In this document: piece by piece, positions 3,329 to 51,818 of the stretch
Position numbering within the stretch: the first letter of the stretch is position 1
Layout: each line of letters begins with the position of its first letter
Source of the DNA: Bacilli bacterium
GTDB lineage: Bacteria; Bacillota_I; Bacilli_A; RF39; UBA660
DNA length: 64,000 nt
Assembly: GCA_017541885.1 (NCBI GenBank)
Contig: JAFXYF010000013.1
Location: forward strand, 1-64,000
Reading direction: 5' to 3'
The notes under the pieces: model-generated
Seen by the model: the letters and a program-made list of their open reading frames with translations, nothing else
Databases searched by the model: none
What the model was told of the DNA's origin: nothing
Made by a program: the position numbers and the translations under genes

Positions 3329-3382
3329 TTAACCTCCTGGATTGACCTTTTAACTTTAGGCAAAAGTCATAACGCCCTATGG

Positions 3383-3520
3383 GTTTTGACATGCTATCAA
3401 AACACCGGCGAACTCTTACGAGTTGAATCATATTTGAAATAACTCAAATATGATATCTAACAACTACTCCAAAACGTGAAGTAGTTATTGGATGGTTATG
3501 AATAATGCAGAAGCATTATT
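3383..3520. other. candidate origin of transfer with stacked inverted repeats
   Basis: The gap between the recombinase and the relaxase holds five inverted repeats: 3383-3403 (7-bp arms gttttga/tcaaaac), 3411-3424 (5-bp arms), 3427-3454 (perfect 11-bp arms, 6-base loop), 3462-3486 (7-bp arms) and 3501-3520 (perfect 8-bp arms, 4-base loop). MOBV relaxases act next to inverted repeats just upstream of their own gene, so this is the natural oriT. The nick position cannot be read with confidence. Parts may instead serve the recombinase or a terminator. Confidence 0.5.
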
Positions 3521-3530
3521 GCTTATGACT

Positions 3531-30827: not shown

Positions 30828-32015
30828 TTAGAATTTTTTTCTCCATACCATTTTATCCACAACACCTGTGTAACTTTGAATTATTTTCACAACTTTTGTG
30901 GAAACATTTTCTTCTACATAGTCTGGTACTGGTATTCCAACATCACCATTCTTAGTCATTTCAACTGCAGTATCTACTGCTTGAAGTAGATTCTTTTCAT
31001 CTATTCCTGCAAGGATAAAGCAAGCTTTATCTAATGCTTCAGGACGCTCAGTTGATGTTCTAATACATACTGCTGGGAATGGTTTACCAATACTTGTATA
31101 GTAACTTGATTCTTCAGGTAATGTTCCTGAATCACTTACTACACAGAATGCATTCATTTGTAAATTGTTATAATCATGGAATCCTAATGGTTCATGCATT
31201 ACAACTCTAGGATCTAATTTAAATCCACTAGATTCTAGTCTCTTTCTACTTCTTGGATGGCATGAATATAATATTGGCATATCATATTTCTCAGCCATTT
31301 TATTAATAGCAGTAAATAAACTATTAAAGTTTGCTTCTGTATCAATATTTTCTTCTCTATGTGCTGATAATAAGATATATTTTTTAGGTTCAAGATTTAA
31401 TCTTGTTAAAATATCAGAGCTTTCAATATCTTTTAAGTTATTGTGTAATACTTCTGCCATTGGAGATCCTGTTACGTATACTCTTTCTTTTGGAAGCCCA
31501 CACTCATGAAGATATTTTCTTGCATGTTCTGAATATGCTAAGTTTACATCAGAGATAATATCTACGATTCTTCTATTAGTCTCTTCTGGTAAACATTCAT
31601 CTTTACATCTATTTCCTGCTTCCATATGGAAAATTGGAATATGTAGACGTTTAGCACTAATAGCAGATAAACAACTATTTGTATCTCCTAATATTAATAA
31701 AGCATCTGGTTTAATTTGATTCATTAATTTATATGATGCAGCTATGATATTACCTACTGTTTCTCCTAGGTCATCTCCTACTGCATCCATATATACTTCT
31801 GGATTATCTAATTTTAAATCTTTAAAGAATACTCCATTTAAGTTATAGTCATAGTTTTGACCAGTATGAGCTAAGATACAATCAAAATATTTACGACATT
31901 TTGTAATAACTGCTCCTAAACGAATAATTTCTGGTCTTGTTCCTACGATAATTAATAATTTTAATTTACCATTTTCTTGCCATTTAACGTCACTATAATC
32001 TTTTCTAACTTCCAT
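30828..32015 (-). CDS. capG: UDP-N-acetylglucosamine 2-epimerase type, CapG/FnlC
   Basis: A 395-residue enzyme of the WecB fold: IVGTRPEIIRLGAVI, HTGQNYD, HMEAGNR, LSAHREENI and VSDSGTLPEESSY. By analogy with S. aureus CapG it converts UDP-N-acetyl-L-pneumosamine to UDP-N-acetyl-L-fucosamine, the third step after CapE and CapF, which are encoded immediately upstream. The ATG at 32015 follows GGAGGT; the longer frame overlaps capF and is rejected. The gene gap to capF is 1 base. Confidence 0.92.
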   Translation of the reverse strand: MEVRKDYSDVKWQENGKLKLLIIVGTRPEIIRLGAVITKCRKYFDCILAHTGQNYDYNLNGVFFKDLKLDNPEVYMDAVGDDLGETVGNIIAASYKLMNQIKPDALLILGDTNSCLSAISAKRLHIPIFHMEAGNRCKDECLPEETNRRIVDIISDVNLAYSEHARKYLHECGLPKERVYVTGSPMAEVLHNNLKDIESSDILTRLNLEPKKYILLSAHREENIDTEANFNSLFTAINKMAEKYDMPILYSCHPRSRKRLESSGFKLDPRVVMHEPLGFHDYNNLQMNAFCVVSDSGTLPEESSYYTSIGKPFPAVCIRTSTERPEALDKACFILAGIDEKNLLQAVDTAVEMTKNGDVGIPVPDYVEENVSTKVVKIIQSYTGVVDKMVWRKKF

Positions 32016-32016
32016 A

Positions 32017-33216
32017 CTATACCTCCATTCCATATGTATCAGGATGATTTGGATCAAATAATTCATTTGCCCACATTACTGTTATTAAGTCTTCTGTATC
32101 AGATAGATTCTTAATATTATGAGTATATCCTGGAAGCATATGTACTGCTTCTATTTTGTCACCACTTACTTCAAATGAGATTACTTCATCTGAACCAACT
32201 TTTCTCTCTTCAATTAAAGCATGTCCAGATACTACCATAAAGAATTCCCATTTAGTATGATGCCAATGTTGTCCTTTTGTAATTCCAGGTTTACTTATAT
32301 TAACAGAGAATTGCCCACAGTTTTCTGTTTTTAATAATTCTGTAAAACTTCCTCTATCATCTTTATTCATTTTTAATTCAAACTTAACTTTTTCTTTTGG
32401 TAAATAAGATAAATAAGTTGAATATAATTTCTTTGCGAATGAATTATTCTTTATTTCTGGCATTACTAATGTATTTGGTTGTTCTTTAAATACATTTAAT
32501 AATTCTACTATTTCACCTAATGTAACTTTATGAGTTGTAGGTATATAACAATATGCTCCATCTTTATCATCTATTGCAGTTACTCCATCAAAATGGCAAT
32601 GATGTTCTTTTCCTTCTAGAGCATCTAACATTTCTCTTACAACGTCATCTATATAACATAATTCTAATTCTGCATTAGGATCATTTACTTGCATTTCTAA
32701 ATCATTGGCAATATTGTTACAGAAAGTTGCTACTACACTATTGTAGTTTGGTCTACACCATTTACCAAATAAATTAGTAAAACGATATACTAGAACTTTA
32801 CTATTATTTTCTTTAGCATAATCGAAGAATAAGTTTTCTCCTTCTAGTTTACTTTTTCCATAATCGCTTTCTGCATATCTACCAATTAGAGTTGCTTGAA
32901 TAGATGAAGATAACATAACAGGACATTTATTATTATTCTTTTTTAATGTATCTAATAAAGTAGATGCAAAACCAAAGTTTCCTTCCATGAATTCTGCATT
33001 ATCTTTTGGACGATTTACTCCAGCAAGATTAAATACAAAATCACAAGTCTTACAGTATTCATCTAATAATTTTGGATCTGTATCTTTATCATATTCATAG
33101 ATTTCTTCTATTACTAATTCTGGTCTTGTACGATCTTTATTATCTTTTAGATTCTTTAGAGATTCTACTAAGTTTTGTCCTACAAAACCTTTAGCTCCTG
33201 TTACTAATACTTTCAT
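32017..33216 (-). CDS. capF: bifunctional UDP-sugar reductase/epimerase, CapF/FnlB
   Basis: A 399-residue protein. The N-terminal SDR domain has VTGAKGFVGQNL and the active site Tyr/Lys as YAESDYGKSKLEGE. The C-terminal cupin (from about 285) has metal ligands in GQHWHHTKWEFFMVVSG and LPGYTHNI. In S. aureus CapF both domains act on the CapE product, giving UDP-2-acetamido-2,6-dideoxy-L-talose. Length is slightly above CapF (369). It lies between capE and capG with gaps of 9 and 1 bases. Confidence 0.93.
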   Translation of the reverse strand: MKVLVTGAKGFVGQNLVESLKNLKDNKDRTRPELVIEEIYEYDKDTDPKLLDEYCKTCDFVFNLAGVNRPKDNAEFMEGNFGFASTLLDTLKKNNNKCPVMLSSSIQATLIGRYAESDYGKSKLEGENLFFDYAKENNSKVLVYRFTNLFGKWCRPNYNSVVATFCNNIANDLEMQVNDPNAELELCYIDDVVREMLDALEGKEHHCHFDGVTAIDDKDGAYCYIPTTHKVTLGEIVELLNVFKEQPNTLVMPEIKNNSFAKKLYSTYLSYLPKEKVKFELKMNKDDRGSFTELLKTENCGQFSVNISKPGITKGQHWHHTKWEFFMVVSGHALIEERKVGSDEVISFEVSGDKIEAVHMLPGYTHNIKNLSDTEDLITVMWANELFDPNHPDTYGMEV

Positions 33217-33225
33217 ACTATCCTC

Positions 33226-34287
33226 CTACTTATGCTCTTCTTGCCATTTCTTTAATTCTTCTTGTACATAGTCTGTTGTTAAAATTTTTTCAACAGTTCC
33301 ATCTACGTCTAGTCTGTTAGTATTATGAGATGTATATGACTCATCTGCCATTGTTTTAACATCTCCTTTTACTACGAATTTATCATAGTTAAGGTCACGA
33401 GAGTCAGCTGCAACTCTGTAGTAATGACCCATATCTTCACTTCTTAATCTCTCTTCTCTAGTCATTAATGTTTCATATAATTTTTCACCATGACGAGTTC
33501 CGATAATATTAGTTCCTGTATCACCAAACAATTTTTGAACAGCTTTTGCTAAATCTCCAATTGTTGATGCATCAGATTTTTGAATAAATAAATCTCCAGG
33601 ATTTCCATTTTCAAATGCAAATTGAACTAAGTCTACTGCTTCATCTAAGTTCATTAAGAAACGAGTCATGTTAGGATCTGTAATAGTGATTGGTCTTCCG
33701 TTTTTGATTTGATCAATAAATAATGGAATAACACTACCTCTTGAACACATAACATTACCATATCTTGTACAGCAAATTACTGGTCCTCCTCTTTGAGCAG
33801 AAACTCTAGCATTTGCATAAATAACTTTTTCCATCATTGCTTTAGAAGTTCCCATTGCATTGATTGGGTAAGCTGCTTTATCAGTTGATAAACATACAAC
33901 TCTTTTAACTCCTTCTTCCATTGCTGCATGAAGTACATTATCAGTTCCAATTACATTTGTTCTAACTGCTTCCATTGGATAGAATTCACAAGATGGAACT
34001 TGTTTTAATGCAGCAGCATGGAAAATATAATCTACTCCAACCATTGCGTCTTTAACACTTTGTAAGTTTCTAACATCACCAATATAGAATGTTACCTTAC
34101 TTGCATATTCAGGATATTTAGCTTGTAATTCATGTCTCATATCATCTTGTTTTTTCTCATCTCTTGAAAAGATTCTTATTTCTCCAATATCACTTTTTAA
34201 GAAATGTTTAAGTACTGTATTACCAAAAGATCCTGTACCTCCAGTAATCATTAAAGTCTTTCCTTTAAAAATACTTTTATCGCTCAT
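33226..34287 (-). CDS. capE: UDP-N-acetylglucosamine 4,6-dehydratase/5-epimerase, CapE/FnlA
   Basis: A 353-residue SDR enzyme starting UDP-L-FucNAc synthesis from UDP-GlcNAc. NAD site: ITGGTGSFGNTVLKHF. Then IGDVRN, AAALKQVPSCEFYPMEAV and LSTDKAAYPINAMGTSKAMM. In this class Met replaces the usual active-site Tyr of the YxxxK motif, as seen in MGTSK. First gene of the operon, with its promoter at 34349-34377 and a leader of about 55 bases. Confidence 0.94.
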   Translation of the reverse strand: MSDKSIFKGKTLMITGGTGSFGNTVLKHFLKSDIGEIRIFSRDEKKQDDMRHELQAKYPEYASKVTFYIGDVRNLQSVKDAMVGVDYIFHAAALKQVPSCEFYPMEAVRTNVIGTDNVLHAAMEEGVKRVVCLSTDKAAYPINAMGTSKAMMEKVIYANARVSAQRGGPVICCTRYGNVMCSRGSVIPLFIDQIKNGRPITITDPNMTRFLMNLDEAVDLVQFAFENGNPGDLFIQKSDASTIGDLAKAVQKLFGDTGTNIIGTRHGEKLYETLMTREERLRSEDMGHYYRVAADSRDLNYDKFVVKGDVKTMADESYTSHNTNRLDVDGTVEKILTTDYVQEELKKWQEEHK

Positions 34288-34400: not shown

Positions 34401-34427
34401 AAAAAAAGACTATTTTTATAGTCTTTT
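34401..34427 (-). terminator. terminator of the ABC exporter operon
   Basis: A 9-bp stem (34404-34412 with 34419-34427), T-run on the minus strand, overlapping the permease stop codon. Confidence 0.82.
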
Positions 34428-35199
34428 ATAATTCTTCTACAAATGTTTTTTCTAGTTTTTTGAATAATAGATATCCAAATACTAAGATTACTACACTTAA
34501 TAATCCCCAAACTTCTAACCAGAATAAATCAGGAGTTTGATGGTAGTATAATGCAGAACGATATGACTCTACTATTACTGCCATTGGGTTAACATGCATT
34601 GCCCATTGGAATTTTTCTGGTAACATTGTTGATAAATAAACAATTGGTGTTGCGTAGAATCCTAAAGTCATTCCGATTTGTACGAAATGAGCTACATCGT
34701 TTACAAATACTGTAATACTAGATAGGATAAAGTTTATACCTAATGTTAGTAAGAATTGAATTAATACAATTAATGGGAAATATAGGAAATGAATTGTAAA
34801 TCCTACTCCACTTACTAATATAAATAAGAACATTATCAAGCATGTAATTAAAAAGTTTATTAATTGAGAAATTGTTACTGATAGAGGAATAATTTCTCTT
34901 GGGAAATATACTTTCTTTAGGATTGCTCCATTAAGGTTAATACAACTTGTTCCTGAAATAACTGCTGTTGTGAAGAAATTCCAAGGAATTAAAGCAACTA
35001 TCATAAAGATTGTATAGTTTTCTACTTCTACTCTTAAGATATATGGGAATACAAAGGCATATACTGCTAGCATTAATAATGGATTTAAGAATGTCCATAT
35101 TACTCCTAACCATGATCCTTTATATTTACCTCTTATCTCTTTTTTAACATTTGTTTTTAGAAGTTCTCGATACTTATATAATTCACTAAATACGTTCAT
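34426..35199 (-). CDS. ABC-2 type polysaccharide/teichoic acid exporter permease (Wzm/TagG)
   Basis: A 257-residue membrane protein with about six spans. The amphipathic N-terminus (YKYRELLKTNVKKEIRGKYK) and GVIWTFLNPLLMLAVYAFVF are the ABC-2 export signature. NDVAHFVQIGMTLGFYATPIVYL lies near the end. It exports a lipid-linked polymer with the ATPase encoded just upstream. The ATG at 35199, after GGGTGATT and immediately past the ATPase stop, is preferred to the overlapping GTG at 35214. Confidence 0.93.
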   Translation of the reverse strand: MNVFSELYKYRELLKTNVKKEIRGKYKGSWLGVIWTFLNPLLMLAVYAFVFPYILRVEVENYTIFMIVALIPWNFFTTAVISGTSCINLNGAILKKVYFPREIIPLSVTISQLINFLITCLIMFLFILVSGVGFTIHFLYFPLIVLIQFLLTLGINFILSSITVFVNDVAHFVQIGMTLGFYATPIVYLSTMLPEKFQWAMHVNPMAVIVESYRSALYYHQTPDLFWLEVWGLLSVVILVFGYLLFKKLEKTFVEEL

Positions 35200-35204
35200 C
35201 TTAA

Positions 35205-35948
35205 TCACCCACACACTTTAGAATATTCGTCTAGAACTTCTTCTACCTTTCCGTCTTTTCTAACTTCACCTTCGTATAGCCAAACTGCTCTATCACAGAA
35301 TTGTCTTACTTGATTCATATCATGAGTAACTATTACAATTGTTTTTCCTGCAGCTTTTAATTCTTTTAATTTCTTAAAACATTTTTCTTGGAAGTGATGA
35401 TCTCCTACTGCTAAGATTTCATCAATTAATAGAATATCTGCTTGAACATTAATAGCTACTGAGAAAGCTAGTCTCATATACATTCCAGAAGAATATGTTC
35501 TTACTGGATTATCAATAAATTCTTTTAATTCAGAGAACTCTATAATTTCATTAATTTTAGAATCAATTTCTTTTCTTGTTAGGCCAAAGATTGATGCATT
35601 AAAGTAGATATTTTCTCTACCTGTAAAATCATCATGGAATCCTGCACCTAACTCAAGTAATGAAGTTAATTTACCAACTGTAGTAATTCTTCCTTTATTT
35701 GGATAAATGATTTTAGTCATTAATTTTAATAAAGTTGATTTACCACTACCATTAGTACCAATTAAAGCTACGCTTTCACCTTGTTTAACTTCTAAATTAA
35801 TATCTTTTAAAACATGTAGTATATGATTTTTTTCTCTATTCTTTCTAGAAAAGAATAATAGCTTTTCTTTAAGAGTATGAGCTTTATCATAGTATAGTTT
35901 AAAATCTTTAGATACATGTGATACTTTTATTGCTACATCTTTTTCCAC
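35205..35948 (-). CDS. ABC exporter ATPase (Wzt/TagH type)
   Basis: A 247-residue ATPase: Walker A GTNGSGKST, Q-loop region, signature YSSGMYMRLAF, Walker B ILLIDEILAVGDHHF and the switch His in VIVTHDMNQV. It lacks the C-terminal carbohydrate-binding domain of long Wzt proteins, so it belongs to the short TagH/KpsT-like group and should not read a polymer-capping group. It begins at GTG 35948 behind AGAGGT. Its promoter is at 35989-36017. Confidence 0.93.
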   Translation of the reverse strand: MEKDVAIKVSHVSKDFKLYYDKAHTLKEKLLFFSRKNREKNHILHVLKDINLEVKQGESVALIGTNGSGKSTLLKLMTKIIYPNKGRITTVGKLTSLLELGAGFHDDFTGRENIYFNASIFGLTRKEIDSKINEIIEFSELKEFIDNPVRTYSSGMYMRLAFSVAINVQADILLIDEILAVGDHHFQEKCFKKLKELKAAGKTIVIVTHDMNQVRQFCDRAVWLYEGEVRKDGKVEEVLDEYSKVCG

Positions 35949-36718: not shown

Positions 36719-39199
36719 CTAACTTTTTCTTTGTTTTCTATAGTTAGTAAGTGCACATAATCCAATATAAGCATTTACTAGGAATAATGGAATAAAGTTT
36801 ACTAAATATCTTGATCTTGTTTCCCATATTAATAAGAATAAGAATATACCGAATGTTGTGATATATAGAAGCAAGCTAAATTCTTTTAATTCTTTTGGAA
36901 GATATTTTCGATAACTAATTCCAAAGATCATTAACAATAATAGAATGAACCACTCTCCATTAGAAATACTCCAATAGATTATATCTTCTCCTTTAGAAGA
37001 TGATACTAGTTTTGTATATTTTTCATGTACTGGTTCTCTTACTAGTTTTACTCTTGAATAGAATGTTCCATCTGTCCATGTGTATGCAATCTTTCTATTA
37101 TAGAATGATAATACTTCATTATTCTTTGTCATTTCTTTAATTCTATTTTTAAGATTTTTCTTTACGACATTAATCTTAGTATCTTCTCCAACATAAGAGT
37201 TTATCTCTTTATATCTTTTTTCTGAATACTCTCCATTATTTTCCATTCCTATTAGAATATAATGAAGTGTTGGGATACGATACTTATTAATTGATTCTTT
37301 ATCAAAGAAATGATTTATGAATACTTTTTGTCCAATTAATGGTATTACTACTAACATAATAATTAGTGGAACAAAGATATATTTGTTTACTTTCTTGTTC
37401 TCTACTATTATTAAATAAATTAGTATGGCTATTAATAAAATTAATGTTGTTGGTTTTATTAATGAGCCGATTCCTATCATTGACCCTGATACCATTATAT
37501 AACTAATTTTTTGTTTTAGGAAGAAATATTTATACAAATAATAAATTGGTACAATGATAAATGGTAAAGATATAGTATCTGTATAAAATATTGGAATATA
37601 GAATACTAAAGGTGATAAGAATAATGCTAGTATCATGAATGAGAAACTATACTTTTCATTTATTAGTTTTATTAATTTATAAGTATATAATAATGCTACA
37701 TCTATCATGATAATATTTAGTATAATTCCTACTTCTATGAAATGACTCTTTATTCCAATTAAATATACTAACTTAAATAATATATCTAGAAGTGCTGCAA
37801 ACATAATATTGTTATCACAGACATAAAGATATGCTGAACCAAAAATTGGATGAGAAGATTTGGCGAAATCTACTGCTATATTAAATACTTGTCCAAAGTC
37901 CCATGATGGTTTAACCATAAACATATAAGCTATTCCTATTTGGAATAGAATATATAAAACTATTAAAATTATATTTATTACTTTATTTGTTTTTACTTTT
38001 TTTAATAGGAAATATAAACTTACTAAAATAATAATTGAAATAATTGTAGTTAAATAATTTAACTTAATAAAATGATATGGATTTATTATTAAATTTATTA
38101 CTATTAATACTAATAATAAAAACATTACTATCATAAATACTTTTATTAAGAATTTTGATATTTTATCAAAGTTCTTTTTTATTAATTCTTTTAGTGTTAC
38201 CCAAATCTTACTAAAGATAAATGATAATACTGATACTGATATCCATAGTAGAATTATTACTCCTAGATCTTTATATATGTTTTCATTTTGTATTGTTTTA
38301 GAAAAGATATTATAAATAATATTTTGGAATAATACATGAACTAGATAAACATAGAATACTAAGTTAGCACTTTTTTCTACAAAGTTATCTATAATTTTTG
38401 GTAGATTAAATTTCTTATTTTTAAAAAATAAGAATACTAACATAGTAGGAGCAACAACGAATATTGATAATGAGTTTAAGAAGACATCTATTAGAGTAGT
38501 TCTTGATACTATAAGTGTACATATTGGAATCATTATTATAGATATGATACTTGTAATTAATAATCTTTTAGATATCTTATAATCATACTTATATAAGTAA
38601 TAACCTAAGAATAGATAATTAGTATAACCTATTAAATTAGGTAATAAGAAATTACTCATTAGAGAATAACCAAATACTGTAGTTATTGCTTGGATACCTA
38701 AGAATGTATTACACATTATAAATATTAAAGCTATTAGTGTTTTTAATTCTTTTTGTTTTAAATTTAAGACTAATTTCTTTAAGAATGGAATAAACAAATA
38801 AATAGTAATTATTACTGGCATAAACCATAGATGATACTCTGTATTAGAACTTGTTATTTGTCTTACCATTTCAAAAATACTTAGTGTTGTTGTTTTAGTT
38901 ATTACATGATAAATATAATAAACAAACGAAAAGAAGAGAAATGGTACTATTAGACGCATTACTCTTTTTTTGAAATATGTAAAATAGTCTTCATCTTTTT
39001 TATTAAATAGTAAAATACCAGTCATCATAAAGAAGATTGGTACTCCTACTCTAGTAAATGAACTTAGGAGAGTCATAAGTAGAAATGACTTTGTATATCC
39101 AAAATATTTATAACAAAATATTCCTAATACATGTAAAAGAATAATCATTAGTATAGAAAATATTCTTAATTCATCAAGATATTTTATTCTTTTATTCAT
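36719..39199 (-). CDS. acyltransferase-3 domain fused to a polytopic GT-C-like domain
   Basis: An 826-residue integral membrane protein of about 20 spans. The N-terminal third (about 1-340) is an acyltransferase-3 (OatA/WecH-like) unit: YLDELRIFSILMIILLHVLG with its catalytic His, FMMTGILLF, YHLWFMP and FYVYLVHVLF. The C-terminal half resembles GT-C glycosyltransferases of the mannosyltransferase/ArnT kind: MFMVKPSWDFGQVFNIA as the first outer loop with an Asp, FYTDTISLPFIIVPIYYL, and a final soluble loop plus terminal spans. It may acylate and glycosylate the same polymer outside. The ATG at 39199 follows GGAGGAGAGG. Confidence 0.8.
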   Translation of the reverse strand: MNKRIKYLDELRIFSILMIILLHVLGIFCYKYFGYTKSFLLMTLLSSFTRVGVPIFFMMTGILLFNKKDEDYFTYFKKRVMRLIVPFLFFSFVYYIYHVITKTTTLSIFEMVRQITSSNTEYHLWFMPVIITIYLFIPFLKKLVLNLKQKELKTLIALIFIMCNTFLGIQAITTVFGYSLMSNFLLPNLIGYTNYLFLGYYLYKYDYKISKRLLITSIISIIMIPICTLIVSRTTLIDVFLNSLSIFVVAPTMLVFLFFKNKKFNLPKIIDNFVEKSANLVFYVYLVHVLFQNIIYNIFSKTIQNENIYKDLGVIILLWISVSVLSFIFSKIWVTLKELIKKNFDKISKFLIKVFMIVMFLLLVLIVINLIINPYHFIKLNYLTTIISIIILVSLYFLLKKVKTNKVINIILIVLYILFQIGIAYMFMVKPSWDFGQVFNIAVDFAKSSHPIFGSAYLYVCDNNIMFAALLDILFKLVYLIGIKSHFIEVGIILNIIMIDVALLYTYKLIKLINEKYSFSFMILALFLSPLVFYIPIFYTDTISLPFIIVPIYYLYKYFFLKQKISYIMVSGSMIGIGSLIKPTTLILLIAILIYLIIVENKKVNKYIFVPLIIMLVVIPLIGQKVFINHFFDKESINKYRIPTLHYILIGMENNGEYSEKRYKEINSYVGEDTKINVVKKNLKNRIKEMTKNNEVLSFYNRKIAYTWTDGTFYSRVKLVREPVHEKYTKLVSSSKGEDIIYWSISNGEWFILLLLMIFGISYRKYLPKELKEFSLLLYITTFGIFLFLLIWETRSRYLVNFIPLFLVNAYIGLCALTNYRKQRKS

Positions 39200-39221
39200 A
39201 TAACCTCTCCTCCCTATCAAT

Positions 39222-40172: not shown

Positions 40173-41045
40173 TTATAGTACATAAATTATTGTAATCATA
40201 CTTATCATATATAAGATTATACATATTATTAATTTCTTATCTGATAGAATTACATCTATTGGATCTCCATATGAATTACCTTCTATATTTAAGCTATATA
40301 ATTGAAGAATTACCATTAATAATGGAATTGTCCAGAATATATAACTATTTCCAATATGCTCTATTGTAGTTGGATCTATACACCATAAGATGTATGAAAC
40401 AATTGCTAGAGAAAATGCTACATACATATTTTTATCTAAGAATTCTTTATTATATAGTGTTAAAGATGTTCTAGACTTATCTCCATTTTTCATTATTTCA
40501 TTTCTTCTTTTACCAAAAGCTAAATAGAATGATCCAAAGATTATCATTAAGTATAGGTATTTAGATACTTCTACATTAATTACTAATCCTCCATAAATAA
40601 CTCTTAATATAAATCCTGTAACGATAACTACTACATCGATTATTGGAATATCTTTTAGTTTTTTACTATAGGCTATATTCATTACTAAATAGATTATTGG
40701 TATTAATAATACCCAAATACTTTCAATACTTTTTGAGATTATTCCTAAAAGAATTCCTAATACTATTAGTAGAATTCCTCTTATTAGTTTTGCTTCTTTA
40801 ATAGATACTTTTCCACTTGCTAGAGGTCTATTCTTTTTTATTGGATGTAATTTATCTTTATCAATATCTGCTATATCATTTGTTACATAGACAATACTTG
40901 AAGTAAATGAAAAGATAAAGAATGCTAAAACACTTGTTAATAACATTTCTTTATTTAAAATATTTAAACTAAAGAAGATTGGTAAAAATACTAAACCATT
41001 TTTTAACCAATGTTTTACTCTGATTAATTTTAAATAATTCTTCAT
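40173..41045 (-). CDS. UbiA family prenyltransferase, DPPR synthase-like
   Basis: A 290-residue membrane protein with about nine spans. The first loop motif is YVTNDIADIDKDKLHP (NDxxDxxxD) followed by KKNRPLASGKVS; the second is YSKKLKDIPIIDV. The N-terminus RVKHWLKNGLVFLPIFFS matches decaprenyl-phosphate 5-phosphoribosyltransferases rather than quinone-pathway enzymes. The expected reaction is transfer of phosphoribose from PRPP to polyprenyl phosphate, giving a donor for a pentose in the glycan after dephosphorylation. The HAD phosphatase at 44.7 kb is a candidate for that step. It is 2 bases from the DPM1-like gene upstream. Confidence 0.85.
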   Translation of the reverse strand: MKNYLKLIRVKHWLKNGLVFLPIFFSLNILNKEMLLTSVLAFFIFSFTSSIVYVTNDIADIDKDKLHPIKKNRPLASGKVSIKEAKLIRGILLIVLGILLGIISKSIESIWVLLIPIIYLVMNIAYSKKLKDIPIIDVVVIVTGFILRVIYGGLVINVEVSKYLYLMIIFGSFYLAFGKRRNEIMKNGDKSRTSLTLYNKEFLDKNMYVAFSLAIVSYILWCIDPTTIEHIGNSYIFWTIPLLMVILQLYSLNIEGNSYGDPIDVILSDKKLIICIILYMISMITIIYVL

Positions 41046-41046
41046 A

Positions 41047-42009
41047 TTATTTTTCCTCTAAATTCTCGGCAATTATATATCTAGGTCTTTGTTTTGTTTC
41101 ATTATACATTTTACCAATATATTCTCCAATAATACCGATAGAAATCATTTGTAATCCACCAATAAACCAAATAGATATTGATAAGAATGTCCAACCTGAA
41201 ACTGTATTTCCTGTTAAGTAACGGACTAGAGAATAAATCATTATTCCAATACTAATAAATAAAATTAAGAATCCTAAGATACAAATAAATCTTAATGGTT
41301 TAACTGAGAATGATGTAATACCATCCCAAGCAAAGTTTAACATTTTCTTTAGTGGGTATTTTGATTCTCCAGCAAAACGTTCTCTTCTTTCATAATAAAC
41401 AATATCTGATTTAAATCCTACTAAAGGAAACATTCCTCTTAAGAATAGATTTACTTCTTTATAATTAGAGAATTCTTCTAATACTCTTTTAGAAGTTAGT
41501 CGATAGTCTGCATGATTATATACACAATCTACTCCTAAGAATTTCATAAATTTATAGAATCCTTCTGCAGTTACTCGTTTAAAGAAAGTATCTTTCTTTC
41601 TAGCACTTCTAACTCCGTATACTACATCGCAACCATCTTTATACTTTTTAATCATTTCATCAATAGCATTAATATCATCTTGTAAATCTGCATCCATTGA
41701 AATTACTACATCGGCATAATTCTTTGCAGTCATTAATCCACCTAATAAAGCATTTTGATGTCCTCTATTTCTAGATAAAGTTATTCCGGTAAAAAGTTTT
41801 TCATGTTTATGAATATCTTTTATAATATCCCAAGTTTTATCTTTTGATCCGTCATTAACATACATTACTTTACTCTTTGGAGATATTTCTTTATCCTTTA
41901 TTAATTTTTGCATTTTTACTTTTAATTGTCTTGTAGTTTCTTCTAATACTTCTTCTTCGTTATAACAAGGAACTACAACATATAAAATTGGTTCTTTATG
42001 AAAGAACAT
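41047..42009 (-). CDS. DPM1-like polyprenyl-phosphate glycosyltransferase
   Basis: A 320-residue enzyme of the GtrB/ArnC group. The catalytic domain has VVVPCYNEEEVLEET, YVNDGSKDKTW and the metal site SMDADLQDD; GESKYPLKKMLNFAWDGITS precedes two membrane spans (about 235-260 and 272-295). It loads a nucleotide-activated sugar onto polyprenyl phosphate for use on the outer face. First gene of a unit with its own promoter at 42033-42061. Confidence 0.92.
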   Translation of the reverse strand: MFFHKEPILYVVVPCYNEEEVLEETTRQLKVKMQKLIKDKEISPKSKVMYVNDGSKDKTWDIIKDIHKHEKLFTGITLSRNRGHQNALLGGLMTAKNYADVVISMDADLQDDINAIDEMIKKYKDGCDVVYGVRSARKKDTFFKRVTAEGFYKFMKFLGVDCVYNHADYRLTSKRVLEEFSNYKEVNLFLRGMFPLVGFKSDIVYYERRERFAGESKYPLKKMLNFAWDGITSFSVKPLRFICILGFLILFISIGIMIYSLVRYLTGNTVSGWTFLSISIWFIGGLQMISIGIIGEYIGKMYNETKQRPRYIIAENLEEK

Positions 42010-42061: not shown

Positions 42062-42073
42062 ATTATAAATCCC
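42045..42073 (-). terminator. terminator-like hairpin after the 889-residue protein gene
   Basis: A perfect 9-bp stem (42049-42057 with 42065-42073), then TTTTGTTT on the minus strand; the stop codon is at the loop. It may be leaky, as related genes follow. Confidence 0.6.
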
Positions 42074-44732
42074 CTGTTTCATCTAATAATAGTAATAATA
42101 ATTCTGATGCAGACCAACTATGCAATGGAGATGATACTTGTTGTGTCATTCCAGGCATAGTACTTGAATAATTATTGTAATTTGCAGAAGATGCTAAACT
42201 CTCCCAAGATAATGGATATAAACTTCTATTTATTGGTATTGTTCCACTACCAAGCTTATGTACTGCGGCATATGAAAGGTATGGATAATTTTTTTCACTA
42301 TTATATGGAGTTTTATCTTTTGTTTCATAATTACTCCACCAAGCCATTTTAGAATATGAATCTTCTGGAATACTATTTAGATCAAATGGATAAGTCTTTC
42401 CAACAGATTCAATTCCTAATTTATACCAAAGATTTTGATATAAGTACTGATCTCCAAAATCAGTTTTACCATAAATATAATATCCATTTGGATTAGATTC
42501 TGCTAAACGATAAGCTTCTTTTTCAATTCTTTCTACAAGATCATATCTTATTTCTTTTTGAGTTGATAAAATGTATAGAAGTTCTCCTAAATTATCAGGT
42601 TCTTCTACTCCATTATTTTGTTTATCATAAATATTTTCAATACTAGATACCCAATCACTAATTAGATCAGTATTATTTGTTTTCTTTAATACCATACTAG
42701 TTAGAGCTGCATCTCTATACCAAGCATCTTTATAGACTACAATATTTGGATATATTTTACTATCTTTAATATTAAATAGAATTTCTCCATATAGTACTTT
42801 TTTCATATTACTATATTTTTGATTACTAAAATCATATAAGTTAATTTTAGTATTTGTTCCTTTTAATACTTTATCATTATAAAATACTCCATCTTCTGTT
42901 TCTTTTATTGTGATAAATTTATTACCTTTTGTTTCCACAATAACTGTGTATAAGTTTGGAATTATATAGTGTTCTTTTTCTTCAAAACTATATACTACTT
43001 CATTTGTATTTATATTTTTTATTTGTCCTTCAAGATAAATATATTTTTCTCTATTAGCCATTCCAAAATAATAATAATCTTGCCAGTTAACATTATCTAA
43101 TTCTTCTACATTATGAGTAGATTTAAATTCATTATATTCATCTTGATATTCTTTTAATGATTTTAATTCTTCTTTAAATTCATCTTTGAATTCTTTAGCA
43201 ATATAATTTGTTTTAACTTGTTTTTCTACTACTCCATCATTTCCTTTTAAATGGAATCCTAAGAAACGATTAGTATCTTTTGGACTTTCTAAAGCAATAA
43301 ACATTAATTCTGTTACTACTAGTAATGTTATTACTCCAGCACCTAATAATAACTTTTTATCAGTATTTTTTTCTTTTACTAAGTTCTTAATTAAGTTAAA
43401 GATTAAAATCATAAATAGAATTGTTAAAGCAATTACAATTACTTCTACTAGTATTAATAATCCATAAGGTAGATTAGCAAGTAAATAATTCTTATTTATT
43501 ATTCCATCTACATATTCTATTACTTTTATAAATATATTTGTATTTTGTAATACTTCTAATATTAAAAATACTATTAAGAAAATATATGATCCTTTCTTAA
43601 TCTTTTTATCTTCTTCTTTAGATAAGTTAATACCTAATAATAAAATTATTAAATATAAGAAATGTAATGAGTAAAGAAATGGACTATTATTTCCATAAAC
43701 TGTATGTAATATTGAATTATATACTATTGATAATACTAATGCTGTATTTAGCATTTTATTTTTTTTATAATTTCTTGCGGTAATAATTAATACTACTCCA
43801 TAGAATAATAAGAATATAAACATACTTAAGTAATTTGTTTCATTAAAAGTAATCATATAATTTTGTTCGTTGTATTCTGAACCATAATTTACTTTTAAAT
43901 AAATATCATTACTTATTATTGAATTAATATAATCATCATTTACTACATTTTTTATATTCTTTAGACCTATTTTATTTTCTGAATATAGAGTAGCTTCTCC
44001 ATATGGGTTTAGATTCCATATAACTGGAGTATTATTCCATATTAGTCTTTGTCCTAGATTTAGTCCTAATAATACTACTATTGTACCTATACCCATTATT
44101 ATTAATTTTTTTAGTTTTACTTTTTTAAAGATCCATAATACAAAACATATTATTAAGAAAACAATATAATTTGTAATTGTCATTGAAAATGATAATACTC
44201 CTAAGATACCTAATAATAGATACTTTTTATTATCAAATTCATTATCTTTATTCTTTATAAAGTAATACCATAATAGTACTAGAAAGAATGCTGCAAAGTT
44301 ATATGTTTCTATTCCTGATGTAAAGATTATATTTGAGAATGAGAATAAATATAATAGTGATAAAAGTATACTTGTTTTTTCTTTTAATCCTACTAATTTT
44401 AATATTCTATAAATATAAACTACTGTTAGAGAACTTGCTAGAGCTGATAGAATAATAATTGCTAGAATTCTATTTACTACTAATCCTTTTATTAGAAATA
44501 CTAATGGTTGAATAATAATTACAAATAATGGATGAACATCTAATCGATAATGACTAGCTGCAATTATTGTAGAATCTAACATTACTCTTCCTGTATCAGA
44601 ATCAAATAATAAATTATAGTTATCAAATAAATTATAATTATAATTTAGAAATACTCCTAAGAGTGTTAAAAAAAACATAGAGCCTATTAATAAATAGAAC
44701 TCTGTTTTTTGTTTTTTAAAAAAGTTTTTCAT
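42063..44732 (-). CDS. polytopic GT-C-like glycosyltransferase with large external toroid-like domain
   Basis: An 889-residue membrane protein. Residues 1-470 have about 12-13 spans with an early outer loop DSDTGRVMLDSTIIAASHYR that contains acidic residues and YRLDVHPLFV, the pattern of GT-C transferases that use polyprenyl-phosphate sugars. From about 490 the chain is soluble and outside. The last 270 residues look like an alpha/alpha-toroid glycosidase-like fold (DAWYRDAALTSMVLKK; VEEPDNLGELLYIL; YLYQNLWYKLGIES; HSWSASELLLLL). I cannot assign catalytic residues. A transferase fused to a glycan-binding or trimming domain would be unusual. The call on the C-terminal fold is an inference. Confidence 0.7.
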   Translation of the reverse strand: MKNFFKKQKTEFYLLIGSMFFLTLLGVFLNYNYNLFDNYNLLFDSDTGRVMLDSTIIAASHYRLDVHPLFVIIIQPLVFLIKGLVVNRILAIIILSALASSLTVVYIYRILKLVGLKEKTSILLSLLYLFSFSNIIFTSGIETYNFAAFFLVLLWYYFIKNKDNEFDNKKYLLLGILGVLSFSMTITNYIVFLIICFVLWIFKKVKLKKLIIMGIGTIVVLLGLNLGQRLIWNNTPVIWNLNPYGEATLYSENKIGLKNIKNVVNDDYINSIISNDIYLKVNYGSEYNEQNYMITFNETNYLSMFIFLLFYGVVLIITARNYKKNKMLNTALVLSIVYNSILHTVYGNNSPFLYSLHFLYLIILLLGINLSKEEDKKIKKGSYIFLIVFLILEVLQNTNIFIKVIEYVDGIINKNYLLANLPYGLLILVEVIVIALTILFMILIFNLIKNLVKEKNTDKKLLLGAGVITLLVVTELMFIALESPKDTNRFLGFHLKGNDGVVEKQVKTNYIAKEFKDEFKEELKSLKEYQDEYNEFKSTHNVEELDNVNWQDYYYFGMANREKYIYLEGQIKNINTNEVVYSFEEKEHYIIPNLYTVIVETKGNKFITIKETEDGVFYNDKVLKGTNTKINLYDFSNQKYSNMKKVLYGEILFNIKDSKIYPNIVVYKDAWYRDAALTSMVLKKTNNTDLISDWVSSIENIYDKQNNGVEEPDNLGELLYILSTQKEIRYDLVERIEKEAYRLAESNPNGYYIYGKTDFGDQYLYQNLWYKLGIESVGKTYPFDLNSIPEDSYSKMAWWSNYETKDKTPYNSEKNYPYLSYAAVHKLGSGTIPINRSLYPLSWESLASSANYNNYSSTMPGMTQQVSSPLHSWSASELLLLLLDETGDL

Positions 44733-44736
44733 ATAA

Positions 44737-45303
44737 TCACTTCTTTCTTAGATACTTTGTGATTTCGTTCCCCTTTACTACATATCCTTCTTCAGCATAT
44801 TCAAGCATTGCTTTATCTGCTTTTATTGAGTCTGTGTAGAATTTTTTTACTTTTTCATCAAATAACTCTTCATATCTTTTTATTTTTTCATAATCATGAC
44901 AGTTTTTAGAAGTAAATCTTCCTGTTTTAGTATCTACACATGAAGCAATTACTTTAAAATTCATTTCTTTTTCTAATGGTTTTAATAAAAACTCTGGAGA
45001 TGCTGAAATAATTACATCAGTATCTTCTTTTTGATCTAGATACCATTTTTTTATATTATCTTTATGACTCTTCCAAAAGTCATCTACATAACTATCTACA
45101 TCATCTATTCTTTTTAAATACGAAAAGATTCTTTCTTTCATTCTTGTCTTATCAGTTATTTTTAAAATATAAAGAAGTGCTCCCCATGCTTGTATAGGCA
45201 TTTGTAGAAGTACTTTTTTATTTCTTTTAAGACAGTAGAAATAAAAATCTACAGATGAGTCTCCATCATAAATTGTTTCATCAAAATCATATGCGTTAAT
45301 CAT
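44737..45303 (-). CDS. HAD-IB family phosphatase
   Basis: A 188-residue HAD hydrolase. Motif I is YDFDETIYDGDS with the two catalytic Asp, motif II is VIISASPEFLL, and motif III/IV is FYTDSIKADKAMLEYAE. The relation is to SerB-like HAD-IB enzymes that are often fused to UbiA prenyltransferases. Here it lies in the same locus as a UbiA protein, so removal of phosphate from polyprenyl-phospho-phosphoribose is a reasonable role, though unproven. It sits 4 bases from the 889-residue protein gene and 8 from a DPM1-like gene. Confidence 0.85.
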   Translation of the reverse strand: MINAYDFDETIYDGDSSVDFYFYCLKRNKKVLLQMPIQAWGALLYILKITDKTRMKERIFSYLKRIDDVDSYVDDFWKSHKDNIKKWYLDQKEDTDVIISASPEFLLKPLEKEMNFKVIASCVDTKTGRFTSKNCHDYEKIKRYEELFDEKVKKFYTDSIKADKAMLEYAEEGYVVKGNEITKYLRKK

Positions 45304-47242: not shown

Positions 47243-49546
47243 TTATGCATTAAAGACTTTATATAACTTCTCTAAACGTTTATCTTGAAGTTCATCTAGA
47301 TTAATATTTTGTTTCTTTTCTTTCTTCTTTAAAATGTCTTTTACTTGTTTAACCATTTCTTCTTCATTTTTAGAAATTACATAAGCATACTTATTCATAT
47401 CAATTGCATCATCACTAGTTGGGAAAGTTGTAATTACATTTTTATCTAGAGTAATTGCTTCTAAGTATGTTACTGGGAATCCTTCATAATCAGATGTTAA
47501 GATAACATAATCTGCTTCATTCATATATGGGAATGGATTTTGTTTTCTTCCAAAGAATGTTACTTTCTTTTCTAGATGATTATCTTTTACTTCTTTTTCA
47601 TAACGTTCTCTATCAGGGCCATCTCCAATAATCCATAATTCTAAGTCTTTTATTTCTTTTACTAAATTAATTTGTCTTGATACTTTCTTTGCGGCATCAT
47701 CTAATCTTCCTACAAAGATTAATAGTGTTTTATTTTTATCTTTCTTTGCATCAATTTTTTCTTTAGATTGTGCTCTAATTTCTTCTGTATTTACAAAGTT
47801 ATTAAATACTACACATTTATCTTTTAAGTCTTTATATTTCTTTATAAATCCATTCATATTTTCATTAGATACAAAGATTATATTATTGTACTCTCTAATA
47901 TTTCTTGAATCAAAGAAATGATAGAAGTCATTATCATCAGGATAGACTATTGCATAATCATTATGTACATAAAGAGCAGTATTTGATGACGCCATAAGCG
48001 TTAATTTAGAACTACTATAACTATATGTTGTGTAGCAGCAACTAAAGTCATAATTATGATCATTTAGTATTTTAAACCAAAGTTTTCTAGATACATTAAT
48101 TGCTTTTCTAATAATTGCATCTTTGTAATTACTTACTTTACAAACTTCTACTCTTACATCTTTATCAATTAGATCTAAGAATATTCCTTTTTTCTCTTCT
48201 AATATTATTGTGACATTATATTTTTCTTTATCAATACGATTTACTAAGTTTAGAAGAGCTTTTTCTATTCCACCTAAATCCATATTGTATGATGCGAATA
48301 GTAAATCTTTCTTATTTCTATTTTCCATATTAATTAATAATAGAATTACTACGTAACTTACTGCAGGAGCAGTTATAATATGTCCTGTCATAAATGCTAA
48401 GAAGACGATTAGGAAGAATGATAAAAGTCTCATTCCATTTTCATAACTTTTTCTTTTTCTATTTTCTAAAATACCAAATAATGGGAATAATACCATTGTA
48501 AAGTAAATAATAAATCCAATTATTCCGTGACTATAATAAATATCAAAATAATCCATTTCTATTTGTTTAGTTTCTTTATCAAAATTAACATAACCTATAC
48601 CGAATAATTTTTCATATGTAGAAGATTCTTTATAAAGATAAGCTTTATTCTTCATAAATTTTAATCTTGAACTAAAGATAAAATGATCTACTAGTTTTTC
48701 ATCTTTAAATACTTCTGTTACATGTTCTAATCCTAAATAATTAAGATGAGTTTTAATATTCTTATAAAAGTTTGTTCTTGGAATTATTAATAGTAATGCA
48801 GCACACCCTATTAAGATTACTCCTACTGATGCTCCTATTAGAGCATATTTCTTTTCTTTTCTAAAATAATTCCATAAGTATAAAATACTAACTCCAATAG
48901 TAATAATTAATGTAAGTAATGGAGTTTTAGTACCTACCATTAAGATTACAATCATATATGTAATAATAAACATTATTACTGGAATAATTCTTTTTGATTT
49001 ATAACAAATTACAAATAATAATGGAGTTAAGATTGAAATTATTCCACTTATTTCATTTGCTGAATTAAAGAATCCTAATGTACCTACTTTAGTAATTTGA
49101 TATGTTTTATATCCTATACCAATTATTGTTGGGACAAAGATAAATAAAATATATAAAAGTATCATAGTAAAGAATGTCATATTACTGATACGAATATTAT
49201 CTTTAATTGAATAAAGAGATATAAATAATATAGGGAAATAGAATGCTCTTATTAGATTTTGAACATCAGTCATAATACCTGAATCTTTATAAACGAACAT
49301 ACCTATTGTATACAGAATAAAATAAAATCCTAATAATAGATAAGGTATAAGTAAATGTTTCTTTTTAAAGATAAAGATTACTATAAAACAAATAAATAGT
49401 AAGAATAAAACTCTAACTATTATTCCAATAGTAATATTAATATGTAATGTATTAATACATACTCCTGTCAATAAATCTAAAATTGGTTGTAAAAGCAAGA
49501 ATATTGCTAAAATCTTATTAATATTATTTTTCATCCATTTTTCCAT
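47243..49546 (-). CDS. O-antigen ligase/polymerase-like domain fused to a GT4 glycosyltransferase
   Basis: A 767-residue protein. Residues 1-415 have about 11 spans and the O-antigen ligase pattern: a large outer loop (about 270-330) ending in SSTYEKLFGIGYVNF and YYSHGIIGFIIYF. Residues 420-767 are a cytosolic GT-B domain of family 4: FASYNMDLGGIEKALLNLV (the GG acceptor loop), LLIFVGRLDDAAKK, LWIIGDGPDRERYE and the E-x7-E site DYEGFPVTYLEAIT. One chain thus has a cytosolic transferase and a membrane polymerase/ligase module. A single-gene unit with an extended -10 (TGT-TATAAT) upstream and a terminator downstream. Confidence 0.85.
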   Translation of the reverse strand: MEKWMKNNINKILAIFLLLQPILDLLTGVCINTLHINITIGIIVRVLFLLFICFIVIFIFKKKHLLIPYLLLGFYFILYTIGMFVYKDSGIMTDVQNLIRAFYFPILFISLYSIKDNIRISNMTFFTMILLYILFIFVPTIIGIGYKTYQITKVGTLGFFNSANEISGIISILTPLLFVICYKSKRIIPVIMFIITYMIVILMVGTKTPLLTLIITIGVSILYLWNYFRKEKKYALIGASVGVILIGCAALLLIIPRTNFYKNIKTHLNYLGLEHVTEVFKDEKLVDHFIFSSRLKFMKNKAYLYKESSTYEKLFGIGYVNFDKETKQIEMDYFDIYYSHGIIGFIIYFTMVLFPLFGILENRKRKSYENGMRLLSFFLIVFLAFMTGHIITAPAVSYVVILLLINMENRNKKDLLFASYNMDLGGIEKALLNLVNRIDKEKYNVTIILEEKKGIFLDLIDKDVRVEVCKVSNYKDAIIRKAINVSRKLWFKILNDHNYDFSCCYTTYSYSSSKLTLMASSNTALYVHNDYAIVYPDDNDFYHFFDSRNIREYNNIIFVSNENMNGFIKKYKDLKDKCVVFNNFVNTEEIRAQSKEKIDAKKDKNKTLLIFVGRLDDAAKKVSRQINLVKEIKDLELWIIGDGPDRERYEKEVKDNHLEKKVTFFGRKQNPFPYMNEADYVILTSDYEGFPVTYLEAITLDKNVITTFPTSDDAIDMNKYAYVISKNEEEMVKQVKDILKKKEKKQNINLDELQDKRLEKLYKVFNA

Positions 49547-49715: not shown

Positions 49716-51818
49716 ATGGCTAAAAATGAATCCAATAAAAAGAAAGATTTAGAAGCTACAGATGAATTAATGGATGCTGTTGATAAAGCATTTGATGATC
49801 CATTTGAAAATGATTCTAAAGAAGAAATAAAAGAAGAGAAAAAAGAAGAAGTTAAAGAAGAGACTGATGTCATTAATACTGAAATATTTTCAAAGATTGA
49901 AGATGAGATGGAAGATGATATGTATTCTTTTAAGAATGATAAACCTACTAGAGAAAGAGATTATTCTTATAAACCTCAAATTAGTGTTCCATTAATCATA
50001 TTAATTGGTACTGCAATACTTTGTGCAATTGCTACATTTATTGCGACACTTATTAATAAAGATTCTAGTGTTACACAAATAATTATGAGTGCAATACTTA
50101 GTTTATTTTCTATTCTATACTTAGTAGTATGTCTTACTTCTAGTAGAAAGAATGAGGCTCCTGTTTATATTACAACTATTCTATTAATTGCTTTATTTAT
50201 ACTTAATATGAATAGAAGTCCAGAAGAAACTGTTGTATCACAAAGTAGAGTTCAAAACTTCAGTGGTAAAACAATTACTGATGTAGTTAAATGGGCTAAG
50301 AAAAATGATTTAAAAGTAACTCAAGAATATGAATATAGTGATATGGTTCCTGAGTATGAAGTTATTTCACAAAATGTTAAGGTTGGTACTGATGTTAGAG
50401 ACATAGATGAAATTGTTGTTGCTATATCTGAAGGACCTAATCCTTTTAAAGAAATAATTGTTCCTAGTATGCTTACTTGGGATGATGAAAGAGTAATTAA
50501 CTTTGTACTTAAGAATTATTTAAATAATGTAATAGTTGATTTCGTAGAATCTGATCAAGTTAAAGATACTGTTATTGAACAAAATAAGAGTGGTAACTTA
50601 AGAAGAAATGATGAATTAAGATTAGTATTCTCTTATGGAGATGAAGGTAATACTAATGAAGTTAATTTAATTGATTTTACTGATAAGACTAAATTTGAAA
50701 TAGAGTTCTATATGAAACAACATAAATTAAATTATGACTTTGTATATGACTTCTCTGATACTATTAAGAAAGGTAATGGAGTTAAACAAAGTGTAGATCC
50801 TGGAACTGTAGTTCAAGTAGATGGAGATAAAATTCAAATTACTATTAGTAAAGGTCCAAAGATTGCTATACCTGATCTTTCTGGTAAGAGTGTAGATGAA
50901 ATTACTGAATGGGCTATTGAAAATAGATTAAAACTTGAATTTGTTGATAAATATGATGATACTGTTAAAAAAGGAAAAGTAATTTCTATTGATAAAGAAC
51001 AAGGTGAACTTGTTGAGCAAGGAACATTAGTAAAAGTTACATTATCATTAGGAAGTTTAAAGATGCCTGAGTTTAAGAATATTGATGAGTTCTACACATG
51101 GGCAGATAAATATGGAATTAAATATGAAGTAGTTCATGAATTTAGTAGTAGTGTTAAAGCTGGAGAAGTTATTAAATATTCTCATAAGAAAGGTGCTGTA
51201 ATTAAGAATGATGAAGCAATTACTATTACTGTTAGTGATGGTGAGAAAGTTTCAGTTCCTAACTTAATTGGTTTAACTAAGAGTGAAGCTACTAAGAAAT
51301 TAAATAATGCTAATTTAAATTATAACTTTGTATATAAAAATAATACTAAGAAGAAAGATACAGTAATTGGTCAATCTATTAGTAGTGGTTCAGAAGTATC
51401 TAGCGGTACTACTGTTACTGTTACATTAAGTAATGGTAAATCTGGAGGAAGTAATTCTTCTTCTGGAAATAATTCTTCTGGTAATAATAATTCAGGAGGA
51501 AATAATAATTCTGGTGGAAATAATAACTCTGGAGGTAATACTACACCTACTCCTCCACCTACTCCAACATGTAATAGTTGTAATGTTACAGGAGTTAGAA
51601 ATCAAGTTTATAATAACTATACTGGATATCAAGCTACTGCTAATGCATTAATTAGTTATATTGAAGGACAATGTCCTGGAATTGATGTACAAGTAAGACC
51701 AGAAGATTCTGATAAGAATTCAGGAGTATTTGTTAGAGGATTCTATCAAGGTGATAAAGATGAAAATGGTAATCCTTTAACTACTTGTAGTACAGTACAT
51801 ATTTGGTTAGCAAAATAA
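49716..51818 (+). CDS. PASTA-repeat membrane protein without a kinase domain
   Basis: A 700-residue protein. Residues 1-88 are a cytosolic, very acidic and Lys-rich tail. Three spans lie at about 90-168. Six PASTA repeats follow (about 180-580; see the repeated ends VAISEG, VFSYG, ITISKG, VTLSLG, ITVSDG, VTLSNG). Next come a Gly/Asn/Ser linker (GNNNS repeats), a Pro/Thr stretch and a C-terminal domain with four cysteines (CNSCNVTG...CPGI...CSTVHIW). PASTA repeats bind muropeptides or peptidoglycan. The usual Ser/Thr kinase half (PknB/PrkC) is absent. TATAAT lies at 49692, and GGAGGG precedes the ATG. Confidence 0.88.
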   Translation: MAKNESNKKKDLEATDELMDAVDKAFDDPFENDSKEEIKEEKKEEVKEETDVINTEIFSKIEDEMEDDMYSFKNDKPTRERDYSYKPQISVPLIILIGTAILCAIATFIATLINKDSSVTQIIMSAILSLFSILYLVVCLTSSRKNEAPVYITTILLIALFILNMNRSPEETVVSQSRVQNFSGKTITDVVKWAKKNDLKVTQEYEYSDMVPEYEVISQNVKVGTDVRDIDEIVVAISEGPNPFKEIIVPSMLTWDDERVINFVLKNYLNNVIVDFVESDQVKDTVIEQNKSGNLRRNDELRLVFSYGDEGNTNEVNLIDFTDKTKFEIEFYMKQHKLNYDFVYDFSDTIKKGNGVKQSVDPGTVVQVDGDKIQITISKGPKIAIPDLSGKSVDEITEWAIENRLKLEFVDKYDDTVKKGKVISIDKEQGELVEQGTLVKVTLSLGSLKMPEFKNIDEFYTWADKYGIKYEVVHEFSSSVKAGEVIKYSHKKGAVIKNDEAITITVSDGEKVSVPNLIGLTKSEATKKLNNANLNYNFVYKNNTKKKDTVIGQSISSGSEVSSGTTVTVTLSNGKSGGSNSSSGNNSSGNNNSGGNNNSGGNNNSGGNTTPTPPPTPTCNSCNVTGVRNQVYNNYTGYQATANALISYIEGQCPGIDVQVRPEDSDKNSGVFVRGFYQGDKDENGNPLTTCSTVHIWLAK
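51479..51537 (+). repeat. 21-bp tandem repeat coding for a Gly-Asn-Ser linker
   Basis: About three imperfect copies of a 21-base unit coding GNNNSG-G within the PASTA gene. Copies differ at third positions. Likely to vary in number between strains. Confidence 0.75.

Follow-up and report, generated by a model that had tools for sequence, protein, structure and literature searches.

A predicted GT-C membrane transferase carrying a GH15-like alpha/alpha toroid in a surface-glycan gene cluster of a Bacilli bacterium

The locus and its gene neighbourhood

The window analysed here is a stretch of 64,000 nucleotides from a Bacilli assembly of 1.45 Mb in 16 contigs, with an estimated contamination of 7%. 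It contains a minus-strand run of surface-glycan genes, within which positions 42063-44732 hold an intact open reading frame with an ATG start, encoding 889 residues. A plus-strand reading of the same interval was rejected, stops being found throughout. Considering the reading frame and the structure models, the protein would be a fusion of a GT-C transferase (residues 1 to about 490), a beta domain (about 540-636) and an alpha/alpha toroid (641-889).

Directly upstream of this gene lies a HAD-IB phosphatase gene with a DFDET motif (44737-45303, minus strand; PF12710, 1.3e-11). On the other side, it is adjoined by a gene resembling GT2 polyprenyl-phosphate-sugar synthases of the PgfS/ArnC type (41047-42009, minus strand). 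Two genes downstream, a UbiA family member is encoded (40173-41045, minus strand; NF008977, 3e-61). Its best family is decaprenyl-phosphate phosphoribosyltransferase, with 207 bits, just below the curated cut-off of 234. In all, two GT2 genes are found upstream and two downstream of the GT-C gene. The run also includes an ABC-2 polysaccharide exporter pair (34426-35948, minus strand), made of a membrane part (34426-35214) and a TagH/Wzt-like ATPase (35205-35948), and three nucleotide-sugar genes recognised by Pfam matches (30828-34287, minus strand), which we presume are probably of the CapE/F/G type, for UDP-L-FucNAc. No MATE flippase was found by Pfam among the genes of 29244-49546; flippase-family genes (PF01943, GtrA) are present only elsewhere in the genome.

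Two fusion proteins are also encoded in this run. At 36719-39220 (minus strand), an Acyltransferase-3 domain is fused to a second GT-C (PMT_2, TIGR03766-like) in one chain of 833 residues. At 47243-49546 (minus strand), an O-antigen-ligase-like membrane domain and a GT4 glycosyltransferase share a chain of 767 residues. Elsewhere in the window, the product of the plus-strand gene at 49716-51818 has a membrane region followed by five PASTA repeats, Pfam matching neither a kinase nor a transpeptidase domain in it.

The association with UbiA and HAD recurs in the loci of relatives (designated L003 to L049). UbiA is present in every locus from L010 to L022, and HAD in all of these except L020, where only the start of the gene remains. 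The UbiA motif NDxxDxxKDxxHPxKKxRPLASG, or a close variant, occurs in the relatives' loci that carry UbiA. In L003/L022, L004, L012, L018/L019 and L049, the HAD domain and the GT-C form a single chain. The smallest cassette is that of L022, where UbiA and a HAD-GT-C-toroid protein stand amid unrelated genes, with no adjoining GT2 gene. In L010, L011, L014-L017 and L021, the GT-C gene is succeeded by one for a GT2 enzyme. In L018/L019 (7904-11140), the DxD of the HAD part lacks one or both Asp residues (YNFNKT, YNLNKT; NxN in L018). As the catalytic Asp motif is lost, this HAD part may be inactive.

Architecture of the 889-residue protein

In the membrane half (residues 1-490; 43263-44732, minus strand), about 11 helices are predicted from hydropathy and 13 are counted on the AlphaFold2 model. 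Beyond about residue 484, the protein is soluble. From the helix count in the model, this soluble part would probably lie outside the membrane, where other GT-C enzymes also have theirs. It begins with a linker helix and the beta domain (residues 513-636; 42825-43196, minus strand), delimited from DSSP of the models, and ends with the toroid (641-889; 42066-42812, minus strand). The last 270 residues, described as an external fold when only the letters had been read, thus come close to the modelled toroid; the stretches then singled out, YRDAALTSMV and HSWSASELLLLL, are residues 672-681 and 871-882. AlphaFold2, run with 13 aligned sequences, gave a pLDDT of 86.6 and a pTM of 0.73 for the whole chain, and 88.1 and 0.89 for the C-terminal 405 residues.

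The membrane half has a multi-helix GT-C fold with the first external loop present in the model. It is closest to ALG12 (Z 25.1, 330 residues, 3.4 A; model m86359c32b287), and the same model matches Pmt4 (Z 23.0), ArnT (21.2) and AftB (20.5). Foldseek also yielded a match (E 3.6e-5), and a Pfam PMT_2 match is weak and below the cut-off. The matches to ALG12, ArnT and AftB, together with that of Foldseek, bear out the GT-C transferase that the sequence-only reading had seen in the first half. Asp46, Arg49, Arg63 and His67 are invariant in the first external loop. The Asp of the DSD motif after the first membrane helix, Asp46, is kept in 13/13 members and is a candidate catalytic residue, probably the catalytic base of this half.

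When the C-terminal model was searched with Foldseek by itself, no toroid scored below E 0.001. The fold claim therefore rests on the structure alignments made in a second look with VIA-align, on a profile match and on the agreement of both models. In VIA-align, the GH15 dextran dextrinase 9ju0 comes first (Z 15.6), its alignment taking in the beta domain and the toroid together over 347 residues, and it is followed by the structures 5z3a-e (Z 15.2-15.5; 5z3c 15.5), which are those of GH15 isomaltose glucohydrolase (PMC12446779). MmpH (Z 14.2) and GH78 (Z 13.8) come next after these top GH15 structures, and the glucoamylase 1gah reaches Z 13.7, with 3.2 A over 229 residues. Lower scores, Z 9 to 11.6, are given by GH63, GH9, GH8, GH88, epimerases and terpene cyclases. 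Structure prediction followed by a fold search, the check proposed with the initial reading, thus returned an alpha/alpha toroid, GH15 enzymes heading the list. In the model, the last third of the toroid is shortened as compared to GH15.

At the sequence level, the C-terminal part has no significant Pfam, NCBIfam or PDB sequence match. The GH15 family PF00723 matched none of 13 members at E values up to 10, and was found neither in the own genome nor across 60 genomes of the class and 100 of the phylum. A GH15 profile was built from 15 sequences, one being a glucoamylase identical to 3EQA and the rest coming from plasmid records. In a profile-profile alignment, WYRDAALTSMVLKKT and the following DNLGELLYIL stretch are matched to the GH15 regions around TWTRDSGLVLKTL. 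The hhalign score is 34.9, as against a mean of 14.2 +/- 1.9 and a maximum of 18.5 for 60 column-shuffled controls and 15.5 for a reversed profile; extending over 57 columns, this match would be a weak signal of remote kinship and no proof of membership. It covers the part S1-S2 only and ends before the acid and base positions; hhalign in global mode against GH15 gave no usable alignment. Residues W671-Y672-R673-D674 (42711-42722, minus strand), kept in all intact members, are aligned to GH15 region S1 (W-x-R-D).

A conserved pocket in the toroid

In the intact members, W671, R673, D674, E711, D713, T757, D758, D791, W798, H825, E844, H871, W873 and E877 are invariant or nearly so. The pocket rim is thus conserved and counts Asp and Glu among its residues, as the second check proposed with the initial reading required. 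Asp758 (42459-42461, minus strand), a candidate acid, stands ahead of the sixth helix, in the loop that carries the acid in GH15. It is kept in 12/13 members, being absent only from the decayed copy L013b, and is lost in the decayed L022 too. Glu844 in YPLSWE (42201-42203, minus strand), a candidate base, precedes the last helix; it is kept in 13/13, replaced by Lys in the decayed L022 and by Asn or Ser in the toroid-deleted L021/L027. His871-Ser872-Trp873 (42114-42122, minus strand) would form part of the rim where the last helix begins (His 13/13, Trp 12/13).

Active sites of toroids lie in the loops leading from odd to even helices. Invariant polar or aromatic residues make up 25/122 positions in these loops versus 12/127 elsewhere (odds ratio 2.5, p 0.02), a modest statistic for which the loop ranges were set by hand from the helix order of the model. 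In two decayed copies, the tandem paralog L013b (odds ratio 4.3, p 0.06) and L022 (odds ratio 4.6, p 0.02), losses fall preferentially on rim residues; W671, R673, E711, T757, D758 and W873 are lost in both.

Distribution, constraint and repeated loss of the toroid

Near-full-length relatives, 33-54% identical, are found in metagenome-assembled genomes (MAGs) of other species. When 193 genomes of the order were searched at the protein level, a near-full-length match came from one genome of the same genus (50% identity) and from one of the same family (35%), others giving a match to the GT-C half. The C-terminal part is rare. Searched against 84,980 species genomes it gave 13 loci, all in Bacilli MAGs; it is present in 6/386 genomes of the family, and of 392 genomes of the phylum the own one alone has it at E 0.001. 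The named relatives are Bacilli MAGs, several of gut or rumen origin. No relatives were found among viral contigs.

Of all parts of the chain, the toroid has the lowest dN/dS in two pairs of relatives: 0.105 in L015/L017 and 0.110 in L010/L014, versus 0.195 and 0.160 for the GT-C half. Thanks to this purifying selection and to the relatives in other species, the 889-residue protein can be regarded as more than a chance assembly.

The toroid is lost or decayed in L013b, L021/L027, L022, L004 and L049, all of which retain the GT-C. In L021, L026 and L027, about 130 toroid residues are deleted and remnants remain; the rest of the C-terminal part in the toroid-deleted copies has a dN/dS of 0.41 versus 0.16 for the GT-C. 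L004, L005 and L049 have a GT-C without the C-terminal part. In a tree of the GT-C half, L004 is sister to the toroid-bearing L018 and L021/L027 are sister to L013a, both branches being starred. As losses fall in several places on this tree, the toroid would be an accessory that has been lost repeatedly, the GT-C being kept. At L013 (8447-13909), two GT-C-toroid genes stand in tandem, one with an intact pocket and the other with a decayed one.

A separate case is L020 (4879-7179), where UbiA and a remnant of the HAD start are followed by a membrane-anchored toroid reading frame of 442 residues with an intact pocket. With the HAD remnant just upstream, its interpretation as a free toroid gene was rejected. 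It would result from an internal deletion that took out HAD and GT-C, and is therefore no proof of independent toroid function; a second HAD-GT-C, without toroid, is present in the same genome. Also at L020, a penicillin-binding-protein-like gene is split into halves about 13 kb apart (2081-4867 and 16237-17049), with a serine-recombinase-like reading frame after the first half, as if by an inserted element.

Possible functions

A mechanism may be envisaged in which the UbiA protein would transfer ribose-5-phosphate from PRPP to polyprenyl phosphate, the HAD enzyme would take the 5-phosphate off the lipid-linked ribose, and a flippase encoded elsewhere would turn the lipid over. On the outer face, the GT-C half would then hand the pentofuranose on to a surface glycan, Asp46 probably acting as the catalytic base. 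A pocket offered by the outer beta domain and the GH15-like toroid would engage the glycan acceptor, most likely at its non-reducing end, and would set which chains get modified, or how far. Such a polyprenyl-phosphate-dependent pentofuranose transferase, holding its acceptor in an outer toroid, is given a little better than an even chance; donor, acceptor and outer location are all inferred. What the computations show is a fold in two parts, a rim of conserved residues, a toroid under constraint, genes for UbiA and HAD that go with the GT-C gene, and a GT-C that survives where the toroid has repeatedly been lost. Counting against the proposal are the cluster's want of a MATE flippase, unlike its prototype, the UbiA score below the cut-off and the failure of Foldseek by itself to match a toroid.

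Whether the pocket binds or cuts is finely balanced, binding being only slightly favoured. At least five conserved carboxylates, exceeding the need of a binding pocket, count against pure binding. It may be imagined that the toroid itself is catalytic, as an exo-glycosidase or transglycosidase in which Asp758 serves as acid and Glu844 as base or nucleophile, so that one chain would both add sugars and trim or transfer them. In GH15, a Glu acid is carried by the alpha5-alpha6 loop and a Glu base by the alpha11-alpha12 loop (PMC12446779); Asp758 and Glu844 stand in matching stretches and are kept in all intact members, decayed copies lose rim residues together, and the toroid is under the strongest purifying selection of the chain. 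However, the canonical GH15 Glu pair was not located in the toroid, which matches no GH family model. In a by-eye alignment, the S3 acid position (W-E-E) reads Tyr-Gly-Lys. Glu844 precedes Trp873 by 29 residues as compared to 17 in glucoamylase, and what follows helix 8 is far shorter than its GH15 counterpart. The initial statement that the chain "binds or trims" its product was therefore too strong, the canonical acid/base pair being unassignable. A bifunctional enzyme of gut Bacilli, in which an outer-face GT-C pentofuranosyltransferase is joined to a GH15-like domain that works as a glycosidase or transglycosidase by means of an Asp/Glu pair, is the main alternative, if a tentative one. 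If true, it would determine how long the chains of a surface glycan become or how they are decorated, and would found a new glycoside hydrolase family.

Two further proposals for the toroid fare worse. A structural scaffold or protein-protein interaction surface devoid of a sugar site is improbable: although the C-terminal domain of the cyclic beta-1,2-glucan synthase Cgs matters even when inactive (PMC10901819), the rim of the present toroid displays invariant Trp, His, Asp, Glu and Arg, which disappear jointly from copies that keep the fold. A non-hydrolytic activity, such as that of an epimerase or lyase, suggested by a match to cellobiose 2-epimerase (Z 11.0) and by the invariant His825 and His871, seems about as improbable, GH15, MmpH and GH78 scoring about 3 to 4 Z above. 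As for the donor, it may be a hexose, since a GT2 polyprenyl-phosphate-sugar synthase adjoins the GT-C. The GT-C half would then use a polyprenyl-phosphate hexose made by this PgfS/ArnC-like enzyme, UbiA and HAD serving another GT-C in the cluster. The GT2 gene following the GT-C gene in many loci and the acyltransferase-fused GT-C of the window would agree with this scheme, which is nevertheless rather unlikely in view of the fusion of HAD to the toroid's own GT-C in several loci and of the L022 cassette, devoid of an adjoining GT2 gene. The pentofuranose transferase with an acceptor-holding toroid is thus retained as the preferred reading.

Comparison with known systems

The prototype is the three-component system of Kelly et al. 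(2024), in which PRPP is used to form polyprenyl-phosphate-ribose-5-phosphate, followed by dephosphorylation, flipping and transfer by a GT-C on the outer face (PMC11127046). There, GT136 ORF12 of Citrobacter youngae is a GT-C with an outer, C-terminal, Ig-like CBM that binds the acceptor, and its partners are a UbiA enzyme making polyprenyl-phosphoribose and a HAD phosphatase (PMC11127046), for which the UbiA and HAD proteins of the present cluster would be the counterparts. In the 889-residue protein, a beta domain and a toroid take the place of the CBM. The HAD is fused to UbiA in the GT136 system, whereas it is free or fused to the GT-C here; a MATE flippase gene is part of the GT136 locus, whereas no flippase gene is adjacent here.

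The mycobacterial arabinosyltransferases AftB, AftD and EmbA/B/C likewise combine a GT-C fold, a polyprenyl-phosphate pentofuranose donor and added outer carbohydrate-binding domains, but these are beta-type CBMs and no toroid is present. The mycobacterial arabinose donor needs DprE1/E2. With GH15 enzymes (9JU0, 5Z3A, 1GAH), the present protein shares the predicted alpha/alpha toroid and W-x-R-D at the second helix, as well as, with the bacterial ones, a beta domain ahead of the toroid. It differs from them by the absence of a PF00723 match, by the shortened last third and by being joined to a membrane transferase.

A precedent for such a junction involves GH94, which is an alpha/alpha toroid. 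In Cgs, one membrane protein unites a GT84 glycosyltransferase with a GH94 phosphorylase domain controlling chain length (PMC10901819). A single membrane chain joining a glycosyltransferase to a glycosidase-type domain is thus common to both, but in Cgs the GT84 part, GT2-like in fold, draws on UDP-glucose, the soluble domains are cytoplasmic and GH94 is not GH15-like, whereas the transferase is a GT-C here. As Cgs already joins GT84 to GH94, the "new arrangement" announced by the sequence-only reading does not hold in general, and novelty is limited to the combination of GT-C with a toroid. No GT-C with a glycosidase or toroid domain was found in the open-access literature searched, and a toroid on this class does not seem to have been described.

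The role of the outer CBM in GT136 has been left open (PMC11127046). In the present family, the role of the outer domain is directly testable, since nature offers a set of proteins that share the GT-C core and have an intact, pocket-decayed, deleted or missing toroid. GT-C enzymes are known to carry beta-type outer sugar-binding domains; with a GH15-like toroid, a novel type of accessory domain would be added to these, and it might even provide a second active site.
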